A stretch of DNA of 64,000 nucleotides from Mesotoga sp. BH458_6_3_2_1 (GTDB lineage Bacteria > Thermotogota > Thermotogae > Petrotogales > Kosmotogaceae), in NCBI RefSeq assembly GCF_003664995.1, contig NZ_JFHL01000021.1, positions 188,880-252,879 of the forward strand, read 5' to 3'. The first letter of the stretch is position 1. Each line of letters starts with the position of its first letter. Position numbers and translations under genes: made by a program. Below the pieces are notes generated by a model. It worked only from the letters and a program-made list of their open reading frames with translations. It searched no databases and was not told the origin of the DNA. Shown piece by piece: positions 24,039 to 40,998 of the stretch.

Positions 24039-25091
24039 ATGAAGAGGAAGATACTGATAGCATTTGTAGGTCTTCTGGTGATTCTATTTCTAGTGAGCAG
24101 CTGCATCCCTTTTCCCAAAGCAAAGAATTACCGCGCATGGGTAGTGGGACAGACAGACACAAACGGAATCGCAATACTTTACTTTTCGGACGATTCCGGT
24201 GAAACCTGGACGCGCCAGGCAATGGACATCCTGCCTGAAGGTAAGAGTTTGGAGGACGTTTTTTCAGTAGATCAGAATACAGTCTGGGCTTGTGGTTCAG
24301 GCGGGCTATTGCTGAAAACGACTAACGGTGGCTCCGACTGGGAGACAGTTGAAGTATCTGAAGTTGCTACTGATTCTTTTCTCTCTTTCCTTTCGATTTT
24401 TGAAGATAGAATTTGGGTAAGCGGTGACGAAGGACTTGTAATCTTCTCTGATGACTACGGTGGGAGTTGGACAGTATGCGACCTTCCCGAAACGGCTTCA
24501 GAATACTTGATTCAAGGAATCCATGCAATAAACCAGAATGTGATCTATGCGGTTGGGAACAAGTCAACGCCCAGAGCCGGCATAGTTCTCAAAAGCGAAA
24601 ATGGTGGTCAGAACTGGGAAGAAATTGAGCTGCCAAACAGCTACAACGACAATGGATGGATAGGTGTAAAGGCTACGGATGAAAATCACATAGTCATCCA
24701 TGGTGGTCAGGGCCATTATGTGGTAACCGCGAATGGTGGGAAACAATGGGTCACAGGAGGTCCTCTTTTCGCTAAAGACCTGAACTCCCTGGTAATGCTG
24801 GACAGTTCAACTTACTGGGCAGCCTGCGATTTTGATACGATAATTCTTACAAAGAACAGCGGAATAAGCTGGGAGGAACAGCCGCCGGCAGGAACGAGCA
24901 ATTCATTTCTGTTAGGGATAGATGCTCTCAACAAGAATAACGCGTTGGTTGTCGGCTCATCGGCCGGATACCCGCAGTTCGGAAAGATACTGCGCACAGA
25001 AGACGGAGGAAAGAATTGGGAGGTTGTTCTTAGCGCAGAGGAATGTCCAGTTACCTTAACTCATGTTTCGATAGCCGAAAAGAGTATGTGA
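24039..25091 (+). CDS. YCF48-like seven-bladed beta-propeller lipoprotein
   Basis: About 350 residues. The signal sequence ends in the lipobox LVSSC. The rest is a propeller with about seven BNR/YCF48-type Asp-box repeats: SDDSGETW, TTNGGSDW, SDDYGGSW, SENGGQNW, TANGGKQW, TKNSGISW, TEDGGKNW. Repeats are separated by phrases such as NTVWACGSGG and NVIYAVGN. Asp-box propellers bind ligands or proteins on the cell surface; no sialidase catalytic residues are seen. ATG 24039 follows AAAGGAGGAGAAA; the GTG seven codons earlier is rejected. Confidence 0.85.
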   Translation: MKRKILIAFVGLLVILFLVSSCIPFPKAKNYRAWVVGQTDTNGIAILYFSDDSGETWTRQAMDILPEGKSLEDVFSVDQNTVWACGSGGLLLKTTNGGSDWETVEVSEVATDSFLSFLSIFEDRIWVSGDEGLVIFSDDYGGSWTVCDLPETASEYLIQGIHAINQNVIYAVGNKSTPRAGIVLKSENGGQNWEEIELPNSYNDNGWIGVKATDENHIVIHGGQGHYVVTANGGKQWVTGGPLFAKDLNSLVMLDSSTYWAACDFDTIILTKNSGISWEEQPPAGTSNSFLLGIDALNKNNALVVGSSAGYPQFGKILRTEDGGKNWEVVLSAEECPVTLTHVSIAEKSM

Positions 25092-25133
25092 AAACCATGG
25101 ATTAGTTCCAAGTTCCAAGTTGTGAGTTGTAAG

Positions 25134-25268
25134 ACCGTGGTTGGGGGTCGGTGGTCGGGGGTTCGTAAGAGCAAGAGAAACTCGTTGACCGTGTTGAATG
25201 GTTCTCCGTTCGCCGAAAAGATCCGCTGGTCGCTTGCTAAAAGACGCTGTACGCTGGAAAGAGCGAAG
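25134..25268 (+). repeat. GGTTGGGGGTCGG-type dispersed repeat, copy 1
   Basis: Its first 80 bases match 40301-40383 almost exactly. The whole 130 bases matches 51987-52113 at lower identity, including CCGCT..CGCTTGCTAA and ACGCTGGA.AG.GCGAAG. A shortened copy starts at 26130. The repeat is preceded by GTTCCAAGTTGTGAGTTG both here and near 51945. It is not coding; origin unknown. Confidence 0.75.
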
Positions 25269-25505
25269 TAACTGGTTCGCCGTTAGACGAGGAAATCTGT
25301 TCTTCATTCTTGGTCAGACCATTTATTCAGAGAGTAGAGAGAAGGGGAAAGCAAAGAGGCCAAGTAAGGATCCGGGATCTTGAAAGGTCTTGAAAAGCTC
25401 TTTAATAGCCTCTCGAGAGCCCATCATTATCCATAAGTCAGGGAGTTAAATTCCGCTAATATGCTTGTTCTCGTGTGAATGCTGTGTTTGGCTCCTGATG
25501 ATCCT

Positions 25506-25560
25506 GATCTTAAATCCTCCCTTGAGGGAGGAGGGCCACGTAGTGGCGGAGGGTGTTGGT
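25506..25560 (+). repeat. Two-hairpin palindromic element, copy A
   Basis: Flank GATCTTAAAT, then CCTCCC-TTGA-GGGAGG (25516-25531), then GCCAC-gta-GTGGC (25535-25547), then GGAGGGTGTTG. The flanks and TTGA loop are shared with copy B at 25740, while both stems have different sequences that still pair. Confidence 0.75.
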
Positions 25561-25739
25561 CTTAGTATGCGAAAAAAACCGATGCTCCGAAATAGTCCTC
25601 TGAGAGCGGTTGCTAGGTGTTAGTTTAGGTCTCTGGCAGGAGCATACCTATGGATCACAGACCAAATAACGCGAAGTATTGAATACATCGTTCAAATTCG
25701 AACAGGCCAACCTATTCTAAACGTTGTTCAAAGAGCACA

Positions 25740-25785
25740 CACCCCACCGCAAGCGGTCCCCCCCGCTCAAGCGGGGATTTAGATC
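25740..25785 (-). repeat. Two-hairpin palindromic element, copy B (inverted)
   Basis: Read on the minus strand: GATCTAAAT, CCCCGC-TTGA-GCGGGG (25776-25761), then ACCGC-tt-GCGGT (25757-25746), then GGGGTGTG. Same architecture and flanks as copy A, different stem sequences with pairing preserved. Confidence 0.75.
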
Positions 25786-25945
25786 AAGAACGTGCACACC
25801 AGGAGGGACGCCGGAAAACCTACCTGTCCCCACATTTCGGGCGAATCGCCGTTCGTCCCTACAGAATCACCTAAAATTGTCATCCCGCAGAGCCTGCCCT
25901 GAAAACCTGCCCCAAAATTCTCCTGTTTGGGGTCTCCTGTTAAGG

Positions 25946-25972
25946 GTCATCCCGAACTTGTTTCGGGATCTG
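25946..25972 (+). repeat. GTCAT...ATCTG palindrome
   Basis: ATCCCGAA pairs with TTCGGGAT around CTTGT. An identical 27-base copy is at 40522-40548. Variant copies with compensating stem changes are at 26086-26117 (ATCCTGAA/TTCAGGAT), 26250-26282 inverted (ATTCTGAA/TTCAGAAT) and 40464-40496 inverted (ATTCCGA/TCGGAAT). Confidence 0.75.
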
Positions 25973-26476
25973 GGCTTACGCAAGTGGTCGGAGGTAGCTG
26001 GTTGGGGGTTGGTCAGGAGCAAAAAAGAGATTGACCCAGTCCTCAAGAAGCAATTAAAACCATCTGATCAGAACCAACTCATTTCGTCATCCTGAAGCGC
26101 TCCTGTTCAGGATCTGGTTTTTTTTAGGAACCGTGGTTGGTGGTGGGAGATCAGTGTTCGGAAAGAGCGAAGTGAAACCGGTTCTCCGTTAGACGGTTCA
26201 CCGTTCTCCAAATAAAAACATCTTCGTTCTTGGTTAAAGCGAAAAAACGAGAGATTCTGAAACAAGTTCAGAATGACGGATTCTTTCACTTAGTGACCAG
26301 CGGGTTTTTGCTCTTAAGCGAACAGCGGTTCTTATGCTCGCAACTGGAACAGTCAACTTGCAACTGCTCTTCGAAGTACGGGTTCATGGTCCAAGATGAA
26401 AGACCAAGGACGGCTCTTCACAGCGCTCAGCGTCTTCTAGCCAGCGTTCGGCGGATCTTGTGGCCCGCGAATCGGA

Positions 26477-26668
26477 ATTGGCCGCACGCAGTGCGACGGT
26501 CCTGATGTTCTGCATCAATTGTGTTTTTCGGTTATTCTTGCCACTGCTTGCAGTGACTGGCCTCAGCTTGAAGCTGAGCCTGGCACCACGAAGTGGTACT
26601 GGCGAAGGCGAAGCCTTCCTGGCGGCGATGATTCTCGCCTTTTGACTGGCCTGCGCCAGCAGACTGGC
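26477..26668 (+). repeat. ACTGGC-linked hairpin array
   Basis: An outlying unit is ATTGGC then CGCAC-gca-GTGCG (26483-26495). The main run is CACTG-cttg-CAGTG (26542-26555), ACTGGC, CTCAGC-ttgaa-GCTGAG (26562-26578), CCTGGC, ACCAC-gaa-GTGGT (26585-26597), ACTGGC, GAAGGC-gaa-GCCTTC (26604-26618), CTGGC, GGCG-atgattct-CGCC (26624-26639), ttttg ACTGGC, CTGC-gcca-GCAG (26651-26662), ACTGGC. Stems are unrelated to each other but each is self-complementary; linkers are nearly constant. Period 18-26 bp. Confidence 0.8.
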
Positions 26669-27063
26669 TTCAAAACCGCCTCCTGCCGAAGGCAGCCTTG
26701 CGACCTGGCATGTTCTTGGCCGGCATTGCGACCTGGGCCGTTCTTGCCCAGCCTTGCGTCTATTGTTTTATTCTTCCTCGCGCCAGCGAGCCTCGCCTTC
26801 TCGTGAGCTCAGCAAACTCTCGACAATGCTCTTTCGAAGGACAGGTCTACGTTCTGCGACGACAACGAATGACGGCTCTTCATAGCGTGCAGCGGATCTT
26901 CTGCCGCCAAGTATCTCGAAGTCTTCTAACTCAATCAAGATTGAAGTCAAGTCCACAATCTTTGTAAAAGCGATCTTCTCTTTTGTGCAACATGTAGGAA
27001 AGATTGCACCTTTGCTGACCAACAAGAGAAGAACCTCAGCTTGAGTGTTTGCTTGTCATATCG
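26647..27063 (+). repeat. Duplicated block shared with 40686-41140
   Basis: Near-identical to 40686-41000, then diverging while still alignable to about 41140, where the second copy runs into a complete zinc-ribbon gene. The main difference in the conserved part is a 28-base segment present at 40749-40776 and absent here. The second half of the block carries the remnant of that gene's 3' end. Confidence 0.85.
26931..27063 (-). pseudogene. 3'-terminal remnant of a zinc-ribbon protein gene
   Basis: On the minus strand one frame ends GQQRCNLSYMLHKRED, RFYKDCGLDFNLD, stop at 26931. This parallels the C-terminus of the intact protein at 40999 (GYKKCSLCYMLNKKEN, RFCKNCGHDFNLD). Two zinc cysteines have become Ser and Tyr. 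Homology upstream continues in degraded form to the stop codon of the carboxypeptidase gene at 27064, where it is cut off. There is no start or promoter; it is a fossil of a duplicated or lost paralogue. Confidence 0.75.
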
Positions 27064-28539
27064 TCATTTTCCATAGAACTGCTTCAAGTCATCCTTCAGA
27101 TCTTCAAGGGCTTCAGGATTTACGTAAATCATATGGCCACCATCATAGCAGTTGTGAATGATACTGGAACGAACTGAATCCGGGATTCTTAGATGATCGA
27201 TACTATAAGCAACAGCTTCAAAGGGGCATTCAAGATCGAACCTTCCACCTGCGATGAAGACTTTGAGATAGGGAGCTCTAGTCAGTGCATGTGAGAGAGA
27301 GCTACTTGCATCAGGAAAGCCCAGATTAAGAGAGTCAGGCATTTCTGGCTCAACTATTCCACTCTCCCAATTCCAATTCAGATATACATCAGCATTTCCA
27401 CTCTTGTAAGGCAAATCTGTATCATATCCGATCTCTCTCTTTATGTAGTCATTTGCACAGGTCTTCAACTGACCGGATAGATTGAACATTGTTCCATCGT
27501 TGGAGTCCCCCACATAGGGTCCAATCGCTGTAATTCTAGAATCATATACGCTTAGAGATCGGCCCTTTTCTTCAAGCAGCAATGTCGAAAAGTCAACCTG
27601 ATTCATCCTTAGATTCCGTTCATAGAAAGCATATGAGCTTATCCCGGTTAGCTTTTCAAGTGTTTCTGCAATATCCCACTTTTCATTGTCACCAAGATTG
27701 TCTCCCTTCCAAAGGGCACCTATATACTCTTGACTAACCCATCCATTGGCTTCTTCGACCAGGATTTCTAGATTCCCCGAAACCATACCATGGTACCAAG
27801 CAGACGCAACATAGACTGGAATTGATAGAGCAAGTGCTCTATCCTCCATCGAACTCCATTGAATTGTCCCGAGATCGAAGACAGGAGAAATGAAAATCAG
27901 TCCAGAAGGGTAAACTCCGATATCCTGAAGGTGCTCTGAAAGGTAGGATCCTCTAACGCCTCCATAGCTCTCACCAAGGATGTAGATTGGCGACTGCCTT
28001 CTGCCTTTTGCGTCAAGATATGATTGTATGAACTTTCCAATTACCGCCACATCTTCCCTCACATCCCAGAATCTCTGAGAATCGATTCCATCTGCTACTT
28101 CAGTGTAACCTGTGCCGACCGGGTCAATGAAGACAAGATCGGTTACGTCAAGTAGAGTATATGGATTGTCCACTAGTTTGAAGGGAGGTTCGGGCTAACC
28201 TGTACCATCTCCACTTCTCTCGGCCACCCTCGGTCCAAATGCTCCAAGATGCAGAAACATCGCAGCGGCTCCCGGACCACCATTGAAAGCGAATGTGATG
28301 GGTCTAGATGAGTCTTCTTCATCCAGCATTCTCTCGTAGGAAACACTGAATATTCTCACAAGTTCATTTCCGTTGTTATCAAATACTGGAAGTAATCCCG
28401 CCGCTACTGTATAGACTATTCGCTTACAATCTACTTCAACAGAACCTGTCTTCGAAGTGCCCGAAATCTCATTCACTGCCAGAGAAACAACACAGACTAG
28501 TAGAAGTGATAGAAATACCAATGCTAGCTTTCTTGACAT
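27064..28539 (-). pseudogene. Serine carboxypeptidase-like (S10) gene interrupted by one in-frame TAG
   Basis: Reading from ATG 28539 (SD AAAAGGAGGTG) gives a signal peptide and the S10 N-terminus with FAFNGGPGAAAMFLHLGAFGP, then TAG at 28195-28197. The same frame continues unbroken with PEPPFKLVDNPYTLLDVTDL, FIDPVGTGY, the nucleophile GESYGG, the Asp region GRFDLECPF and the His region DGGHMIYVNPEAL to the stop at 27064. So 491 codons are intact except one. It is an exported alpha/beta-hydrolase peptidase that is either recently inactivated, read through, or affected by a sequence error. A TATAAT sits at 28566-28571 on the minus strand, without a clear -35. Confidence 0.85.
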
Positions 28540-28639
28540 AGCGCACCTCCTTTTGGTTACAACAGATTATAATCCTTGAAAGTACATGAACTTACCGCAA
28601 GAAAAACACTGAATTGCCAAGCTCCCAAAAACCTTTCTG

Positions 28640-29090
28640 ATAGAGAGTACGGTGTAGGGGTAGGAAGATGCTAAGGACGGAGGTTTTCCGTTGACCGTCA
28701 TCCGTTCTCCGATAGCTCTCGACGGGGGACTGAGGACCGTTGACGGTTGACCTGAGAGAAGCCTCCTGCCGAAGGCAGCATTGCGACCGACGATGCTTCT
28801 CGGCGCACTATGTCTAATGTTTTATTCTCCCTCACGCCAGCGAGCATCACTTCCCGACGAAGTCGGCCTCACTTCCCCGGACGCTTTTCCGGGCATCACT
28901 TCCTGGGATGCTCTTCCCAGCATCACTTCTTGAAATGTTCTTGCCCAGCCTTGCGTCCCACCAAAACCAGCTTAACTTTAGGTCTTATCCAAGGATGGAT
29001 TTGTGGTCTTGAACTACGAAACAAGGGTGTCTTTTTCTTCACCATGAGACATTGCACATTCCCGGCCCCCCACTTCACGAATTTTTAACC
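28640..29090. repeat. Repeat island 2 with catcacttc-linked hairpins
   Basis: No supported gene. Contains CTGCC-gaa-GGCAG (28766-28778) with cattgcgacc, as in the other islands. A run follows of CCGAC-gaa-GTCGG (28854-28866), cctcacttc, CCCGG-acgctttt-CCGGG (28876-28893), catcacttc, CTGGG-atgctctt-CCCAG (28903-28920), catcacttc, then a ttgcccagccttgcgtccc half-unit shared with island 3. Stems vary, linkers are constant. Confidence 0.75.
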
Positions 29091-40169: not shown

Positions 40170-40645
40170 CATTCGTAGCATCACCGCCCATCCAGAAAAG
40201 AAAGTAGCAAATGTAAACACAAAGAGATTGATACAATAAATTATACAATAATCTGGAAGAATTCTACTTTAGAGATCAATGTCGAAGGGAAGGCGTGGAA
40301 ACCGGGGTTGGGGGTCGGTGGTCGGGGGTTCGTAAGAGCAAGAGAAACTGGTTGACCGTGTTGAACGGTTCTCCGTTCTCCGAATAAAAAACCTGTTCTT
40401 CGTTCCAGAGCAAGGATCTGTTCTTCGTTCTTGGTCAAAACCGTAAAGCAGCAGCACCAAGATTCCGAACAGGAGCTTTGTCGGAATGACGGAATCTGGC
40501 CTTTAGGAATAACCATTCGCTGTCATCCCGAACTTGTTTCGGGATCTGCTCTCGGCGGGGGGCGGGGGACCGTTGACGGACAACGTCGCCTTCGGCAGCG
40601 CTCAGCGTCTTCTAGCCAAGCGACTATCTGCCCTGCACAGTCGGA

Positions 40646-40707
40646 ACTGGCCTCGCAAAACGCGAGACTTGCCACCGAAGGTGATTGGCCTGCGCCAGCA
40701 GACTGGC
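40646..40707 (+). repeat. ACTGGC-linked hairpin array, second locus
   Basis: ACTGGC, CTCGC-aaaac-GCGAG (40652-40666), ACTTGC, CACC-gaa-GGTG (40673-40683), ATTGGC, CTGC-gcca-GCAG (40690-40701), ACTGGC. The first two stems differ from any at 26477-26668; the last unit is shared. Confidence 0.78.
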
Positions 40708-40722
40708 TTCAAAAACGCCTCC

Positions 40723-40830
40723 TGCCGAAGGCAGCCTTGCGACCTGGCGTGATCTTCGCCAGCCTTGCGTCCCGGCATGTTCTTGGCCGGCATTGCGACC
40801 TGGGCCGTTCTTGCCCAGCCTTGCGTCTAT
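40723..40830 (+). repeat. ttgcg-linked hairpin array
   Basis: Units are CTGCC-gaa-GGCAG, ccttgcgac, CTGGC-gtgatctt-cGCCAG, ccttgcgtc, CCGGC-atgttctt-GGCCGG, cattgcgac, CTGGGC-cgttctt-GCCCAG, ccttgcgtc. Stems differ, spacers share TTGCG. The homologous array at 26683-26760 lacks exactly one 28-base unit. Confidence 0.8.
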
Positions 40831-40998
40831 TGTTTTATTCTTCCTCGCGCCAGCGAGCCTCGCCTTCTCGGTGAGCTCAGCAAACTCTCGACAATGCTCT
40901 TTCGAAGGACAGGTCTAAGTTCTGCGACGACAACGAATGACGGCTCTTCATAGCGTGCAGCGGATCTTCTGCTGCCAAGTATCTCGAAGTCTTCTAAC

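Follow-up and report, generated by a model that had tools for sequence, protein, structure and literature searches.

The row of small hairpins in an intergenic space of Mesotoga sp. BH458_6_3_2_1 that we describe here is a Mesotoga-specific mosaic repeat resembling REPs and BIMEs: this is the reading we hold with moderate confidence, and in it arrays spread by duplication, exchange units from tag to tag, and may have been seeded by a single-strand DNA process of the HUH/Y1 type. The row lies in the window, i.e., the whole 64,000-nt stretch analyzed (contig NZ_JFHL01000021.1, positions 188,880 to 252,879). The family to which it belongs was apparently undescribed before.

A dispersed family of tagged hairpins in Mesotoga

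How widespread is the family? A blast search with the array region matched 78 places in the genome that contains the window, and 10 of the 41 genomes searched had matches (9/10 of the genus Mesotoga and one of a neighboring genus). Plasmid and phage records searched in the same way gave no match to the array, and public matches to one unit came from Thermotogales/Kosmotogaceae MAGs. The search of this and related genomes that the sequence-only reading had proposed thus reveals a dispersed, lineage-specific repeat family, found in most Mesotoga genomes in several hundred mostly intergenic copies. Its composition varies within the genus: all three tags occur in genomes G000, G001, G002, G004, G005, and G009, whereas G003, G007, and G008 lack the second and third tags or nearly so. 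Arrays are missing or almost missing in G003 and G008; in G007 they are of the ACTGGC type only, with 113 such matches, and ACTGGC stands beside stems of its own (ATCGC/GCGAT, ACGAC/GTCGT) that fall outside the recurrent set of the other genomes and carry the same loop types.

All parts reported in the sequence-only reading—a row of six hairpins, an outlier, and their linkers at 26477–26668—were found as described (Table 1). The limits it gave were too narrow: beyond them, units with a second tag, TTGCGWC, take the array on to about 26790. Of the three linkers that it listed, two (CCTGGC and CTGGC, beside ACTGGC) are damaged copies, with ACTGGC at both points elsewhere. Two further arrays stand on the same strand of the window. 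One hairpin has mixed arms, the left as in CTGGCG..CGCCAG and the right as in CCGGC..GCCGG; judging from the intact two-unit form at 40744–40799 and elsewhere, it apparently arose by a deletion inside hairpins. Array spacers (e.g., window positions 26400–26440 and 26860–26905) also hold other short recurring phrases (AGCGNNCAGCGG, GGACGGTGAACCGTTGACGGTGGACC, CTCTCGACAATGCTCTTTCTCGA) that are partly self-complementary.

Table 1. Tagged hairpins, arrays, and a neighboring repeat in the window (positions are those of the window)
Feature	Position	Strand	Remark
Worn tag ATTGGC (from ACTGGC) + outlier hairpin CGCAC-GCA-GTGCG (26483–26495)	26477–26495	+	Other copies: ACTGGC + CGCACGAAGTGCG
Untagged hairpin TGATG-TTCTG-CATCA	26503–26517	+	Kept in most block copies
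Unit 1: CACTG-CTTG-CAGTG (26542–26555) + ACTGGC	26542–26561	+	
Unit 2: CTCAGCT-TGA-AGCTGAG (26562–26578) + worn tag CCTGGC	26562–26584	+	ACTGGC in other copies
Unit 3: ACCAC-GAA-GTGGT (26585–26597) + ACTGGC	26585–26603	+	
Unit 4: GAAGGC-GAA-GCCTTC (26604–26618) + CTGGC, A lost	26604–26623	+	ACTGGC in other copies
Unit 5: GGCGA-TGATTC-TCGCC (26624–26639), TTTTG, then ACTGGC	26624–26650	+	
Unit 6: CTGC-GCCA-GCAG (26651–26662) + ACTGGC	26651–26668	+	
Unit of second tag class: CTGCC-GAA-GGCAG + CCTTGCGAC	26683–26704	+	
Mixed-arm hairpin CTGGCATGTTCTTGGCCGG (26705–26723) + CATTGCGAC	26705–26732	+	
Hairpin CTGGGC-CGTTCTT-GCCCAG + CCTTGCGTC	26733–26760	+	
Hairpin CTCGC-GCCA-GCGAG	26777–26790	+	Tag missing here; often opens third (TCACTTC) block
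Second array: CTGCCGAAGGCAG-cattgcgac ... CCGACGAAGTCGG-cctcacttc-CCCGGACGCTTTTCCGGG-catcacttc-CTGGGATGCTCTTCCCAG-catcacttc	28766–28955	+	
Third array: ACTGGC block, then TTGCGWC block	40645–40854	+	
Neighboring CGTC-type REP GATTCTGAAACAAGTTCAGAATGACGG	26253–26279	+	Separate family, already described; cf. CGTC-3 REPs of M. prima (PMC3733652)

A common grammar of tag, stem, and loop

The unit proved to be a hairpin of 11–19 nt followed by a tag, with units arranged head to tail. In an unbiased scan, in which all perfect hairpins in ~690 kb of two genomes were collected and the adjoining 3′ 7-mers counted, three tags emerged on the immediate 3′ side: ACTGGC, C[CA]TTGCG[TA]C, and C[CA]TCACTTC. 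Among these 7-mers, strong enrichment was confined to ACTGGC, TTGCG[TA]C, and TCACTTC (or their complements). Of the C[CA]TTGCG[TA]C occurrences 74%, and of the C[CA]TCACTTC occurrences 65%, immediately follow the last base of a perfect hairpin, compared with 4% of random positions; the figure for ACTGGC is only 14%, because this hexamer often occurs by chance. Stems are 4–7 bp long, nearly all with C as first base, and at least 17 different ones recur. Unit statistics rest on ~1.4–1.8 Mb of stretches, partly picked around array matches, together with whole-genome pattern counts.

The idea that linkers stay constant while stems change and remain paired is borne out by segments between tags, which were not selected for pairing. 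Those of 18 nt are paired at 0.91 over the outer five pairs, against 0.63 ± 0.02 with arms re-dealt (maximum 70% in 300), and those of 13 nt at 0.88, against 0.53 ± 0.04. Loops are indeed limited, as first noticed, and on the tag strand fall into three classes: C-GNA-G triloops (34 of 47 distinct triloop hairpins), GNNA tetraloops (15 of 17 tetraloops), and a longer YGNNYY type. Triloops keep their orientation, reading GNA on the tag strand and hardly ever TNC. Most of the GNNA tetraloops are not GNRA, and RNA tetraloop rules therefore do not explain them.

Relation to known repeats

How does this design compare with named systems? CRISPR arrays consist of long identical direct repeats with unique, nonpalindromic spacers. 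Here the shared parts measure 6–9 nt, and palindromes that are found again at other places make up the variable parts, so the initial exclusion of CRISPR holds. The genome table of Mesotoga strain PhosAc3 gives nine CRISPR repeats (PMC4603820), and automatic calls of that sort could include hairpin arrays of the present kind. The accompanying statement that no named element has this design requires qualification: the design comes close to tagged REPs and BIMEs, although the parts of the REP literature covered contain no description of these three tags and no mention of modular rows.

With the REP/RAYT system (GTAG superfamily) the arrays share small, high-copy intergenic palindromes, a constant unpaired end tag, and variable stems, and some REPs, of the Marinomonas REPMb type, have just 5 bp and a short loop (PMC8266576). 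In GTAG REPs, however, GTAG or GTGG stands directly 5′ of the palindrome, whereas the Mesotoga tags are different and never GTAG. The Mesotoga family further differs in bringing together its many stems within a few related genomes, in having three tag classes that share hairpins, in its head-to-tail rows, and in the lack of a Y1 gene from some array-rich genomes. In G000, G001, G002, G004, and G005, we found no RAYT gene standing between two inverted family members.

CGTC REPs (including Neisseria dRS3, and CGTC-3 in M. prima and K. olearia) occupy the same genus and often the same intergenic spaces. They too combine a palindrome with an unpaired end motif and have no dedicated transposase known, and they are characterized by an 8–9 bp stem with A/T in the first two positions, a 4–5 nt loop, and one tag (PMC3733652). 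They form mainly head-to-head pairs and rare clusters, whereas the Mesotoga arrays have shorter stems, other tags, and long rows; end motif and stem of the array units depart from the CGTC pattern. TTGCGTC does contain CGTC, but the variant TTGCGAC exists, and the tag flanks the hairpin on both sides. M. prima is listed as REP-rich (PMC12306157) and carries CGTC-3 REPs (PMC3733652), which appear to be the separate ATTCTGAA..TTCAGAATGACGG elements beside the window array. At window positions 26253–26279 and 40470–40545, and in other spacers, we observed further hairpins whose stems vary while their ends (ATTCTGAA..TTCAGAATGACGG, ATTCCGA..TCGGAATGACGG) stay constant; this second family matches the described CGTC REPs. 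Most long spacers of the window's genome look like mosaics of hairpin families.

Like BIMEs, the arrays are mosaic clusters in which a limited number of palindromic units is combined with fixed linking motifs. BIMEs alternate in orientation and use few palindrome types, whereas Mesotoga rows run in one direction with many stem types: only 1 of 116 clusters (single-unit clusters counted in) is mixed-strand. Lacking the GTAG or CGTC tag, the alternation of BIMEs, and a RAYT partner, the family is thus a tagged-palindrome repeat outside those families.

Cyanobacterial small dispersed repeats—hairpin elements associated with short repeats—are also very short and mobile-looking. We know of no comparable three-tag grammar among the organellar hairpin elements, which, unlike the Mesotoga arrays, sit in organelles. 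These elements (double-hairpin elements and the repetitive hairpin-forming elements of sponges) are likewise small intergenic hairpin families (PMC2800124).

Units are exchanged whole

Parsed arrays reduce to about 15–17 hairpin types and the three tags, frequently in the block order ACTGGC, TTGCGWC, TCACTTC with fixed joints between blocks. Among 138 neighbor pairs of hairpins 48 are distinct, and 5 of 15 stems occur with more than one tag. Among 383 unselected inter-tag segments, 297 have perfect 4-bp ends; a right arm from another hairpin occurs in just 5 of the 321 segments with a recurrent left arm, and four of these five mixed-arm hairpins involve the CTGG/CCGG pair, one wobble apart. 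When the window block is aligned with 15 copies, whole hairpins are seen swapped between intact ACTGGC tags, the change falling at ACTGGC, and array variants differ by whole units. A step of unit shuffling is therefore well supported by these whole-unit differences. In the favored model, the unit is a very small hairpin (a 4–7 bp stem closed by a C-G​NA-G, GNNA, or YGNNYY loop) with its constant unpaired tag, and we infer fairly firmly that arrays gain, lose, and swap whole units by tag-to-tag recombination or slippage, since neighboring units have no sequence in common except the tags. Tag-to-tag recombination alone cannot place one hairpin beside different tags, a point against the favored model.

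Is there a partner enzyme?

The first scattering of units may, by analogy with TnpA_REP/RAYT acting on REPs, have involved single-strand DNA hairpins recognized by their structure and tag; TnpA_REP recognizes tag plus palindrome (PMC8266576). Such recognition would account for a stem that drifts while tag and loop are retained. RAYT-like Y1 transposases do occur in some Mesotoga genomes, with two in G000, and may once have mobilized tagged hairpins. As the partner of the arrays, however, the Y1 transposase was rejected, its presence failing to track them: PF01797 is absent from array-rich G001 and G002, and two such genes occur in array-poor G008. The Y1 genes of G000, G004, and G005 are not bounded by array units, and one Y1 gene seems to have a GGGACTGAC-type palindrome of its own at its borders and to have inserted beside or within an array. 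Two placements were observed in passing: a RAYT-like Y1 gene at 1039–1902 of L124 (G000:C7), with palindromic ends GGGGACTGAC..GTCTGTACCC, directly follows an ACTGGC array, and another, at L123 (G005), has an ACTGGC array within 100 bp. We found no insertion with a matching empty site.

Are the units instead active nonautonomous transposons, present substrates of an HUH/Y1 or other single-strand enzyme that inserts them under guidance of the tag? Tag plus hairpin is the recognition logic of REPs and IS200/IS605, and on the complementary strand the tag precedes the hairpin on its 5′ side, two of the tags being set off by 2 nt, as in Marinomonas REPMb (PMC8266576 for both). A weak lagging-strand bias before correction points the same way. 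The lack of empty sites and of a linked enzyme, and arrays that are static between close relatives, nevertheless make this reading rather unlikely. We likewise give little credence to the possibility that the arrays are hairpin cassettes in which structure is what is inherited: a putative single-strand enzyme or replication process would recognize any stem with a GNA-type loop and tag and move or rebuild hairpins on interchangeable tags, giving combinatorial arrays without a Y1 transposase. The missing empty sites, the Y1 genes that do not track arrays, the single direction of the arrays, and the absence of a GTAG tag also count against the favored model, whose scattering activity seems to be extinct or to depend on an enzyme still to be identified.

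The replication-strand bias was nominal (lagging strand, P = 0.014) and rose to P = 0.15 after correction for local clustering; base 368 of G001 was taken as the site of dnaA, and the terminus was assumed to lie on the opposite side. Arrays are clumped in G001:C1 (0.89–1.27, 1.70–1.92, and 2.41–2.86 Mb), and between 2.16 and 2.86 Mb nearly all recognized arrays lie on the + strand, where replication bias is inseparable from local duplication. In the counterpart of the window's intergenic region (G001:C1:2586800–2590300, L094–L095), a block of ~350 bp is repeated in tandem and there is a group II intron-like element that includes a reverse transcriptase; a TCACTTC array comes next.

Evidence for a DNA-level rather than an RNA-level role

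Do the arrays act as structured RNA, with transcribed hairpins that protect, terminate, or regulate neighboring mRNAs? Pairing is kept across unit families, and tag-strand mismatches are more often G·T than A·C (35 versus 20, P = 0.058), which is only suggestive as to which strand folds. Against this, cluster context matches the intergenic background (31 codirectional, 21 divergent, and 17 convergent, versus 230/110/70), and the clusters favor neither 3′ ends nor convergent pairs nor the coding strand (19 versus 12); 36 of 116 clusters fall inside ORFs of at least 110 aa, which are probably spurious calls of a crude ORF caller. A role as terminator or in mRNA 3′ ends or 3′ UTRs was ruled against, as the spacer distribution follows background. 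Rfam 15 models gave no match in 25000–29000 at E values up to 1, copies decay with broken pairs, and the tetraloops, as noted, mostly fall outside GNRA. As RNA, the strand folds little better than its shuffles (z = −1.9), compared with z = −3.3 to −3.4 as DNA. DNA folding energies fail to separate the two strands of the triloop hairpin, because the energy model has no GNA bonus. C-G-closed GNA loops are described as having extraordinary stability in DNA (Hirao 1994 and Yoshizawa 1997, as cited in PMC6479982), and loops of a class unusually stable in single-stranded DNA point to a DNA-level rather than an RNA-level role. We consider the RNA reading distinctly unlikely.

Copies decay without significant present turnover

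The sequence-only reading had seen in the paired, changing stems either selection on structure or a process copying one arm from the other. Pairing is maintained while stems change between unit families; present-day turnover within copies is not supported. In 11 copies of the window block, pairing holds in 93% of cells, with 21 broken, 7 wobble, and 2 two-sided changes, and compensatory turnover among these copies is not significant, as the two-sided changes were matched by 46 of 500 shuffles. Within such copies we see no sign that selection now maintains pairing. Orthologous arrays of G000 and G001 are nearly identical. This is the outcome that the same reading, in proposing that loci be aligned for stem turnover, had named as contrary to it: stems identical among relatives, with no compensatory changes. 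Near-identical orthologs and the lack of significant turnover in copies together indicate that stem diversity is old and lies between unit families.

Arm-copying mutation, in which template switching in quasi-palindromes rewrites one arm and keeps stems perfect without selection or transposition, would account for perfect stems of unrelated sequence between constant flanks, and slippage and template switching classically act on hairpins that lie between short direct repeats. But loops keep one orientation (GNA), whereas some such events would invert them; imperfect stems persist in copies; and no stem is replaced in situ between close relatives. No arm copying was demonstrated, and we regard it as quite improbable. 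The favored mosaic-repeat model instead has finished arrays carried as blocks within larger intergenic duplications and then decaying neutrally, a step that we consider fairly firm.

The proposed count against shuffled sequence came out in favor of the array: 11 hairpins (perfect, stem of at least 5 bp, loop of 3–9) in the 361 nt of 26440–26800, against 2.15 ± 1.3 and a maximum of 6 in 500 dinucleotide-preserving shuffles. For the 127-nt core alone, the hairpin count is unexceptional (5; shuffles, mean 2.3, maximum 5), while paired bases are exceptional (56; mean 21, maximum 52 in 1,000 shuffles). The window has 13 tag-anchored stems of at least 5 bp and none with the tags read backward, and across the G000 genome, paired or hairpin-adjacent tags outnumber the hits of the backward-pattern control by 140 to 0, 72 to 0, and 101 to 8. 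A chance or assembly artifact, for which the unremarkable hairpin count of the core is the sole argument, has practically no credibility in the face of the shuffle tests, the reversed-pattern controls, and the independent assemblies of several species.

Significance

Few repeats in bacteria are as common, and few as poorly understood, as tagged palindromes. In Mesotoga, arrays like these may be miscalled as CRISPRs or may confuse assemblies. With many stems on three tags in a few genomes, the part needed for spread—tag, loop, or stem—can be read from natural variants, and a seemingly enzyme-less spread is open to testing in the Mesotoga arrays.
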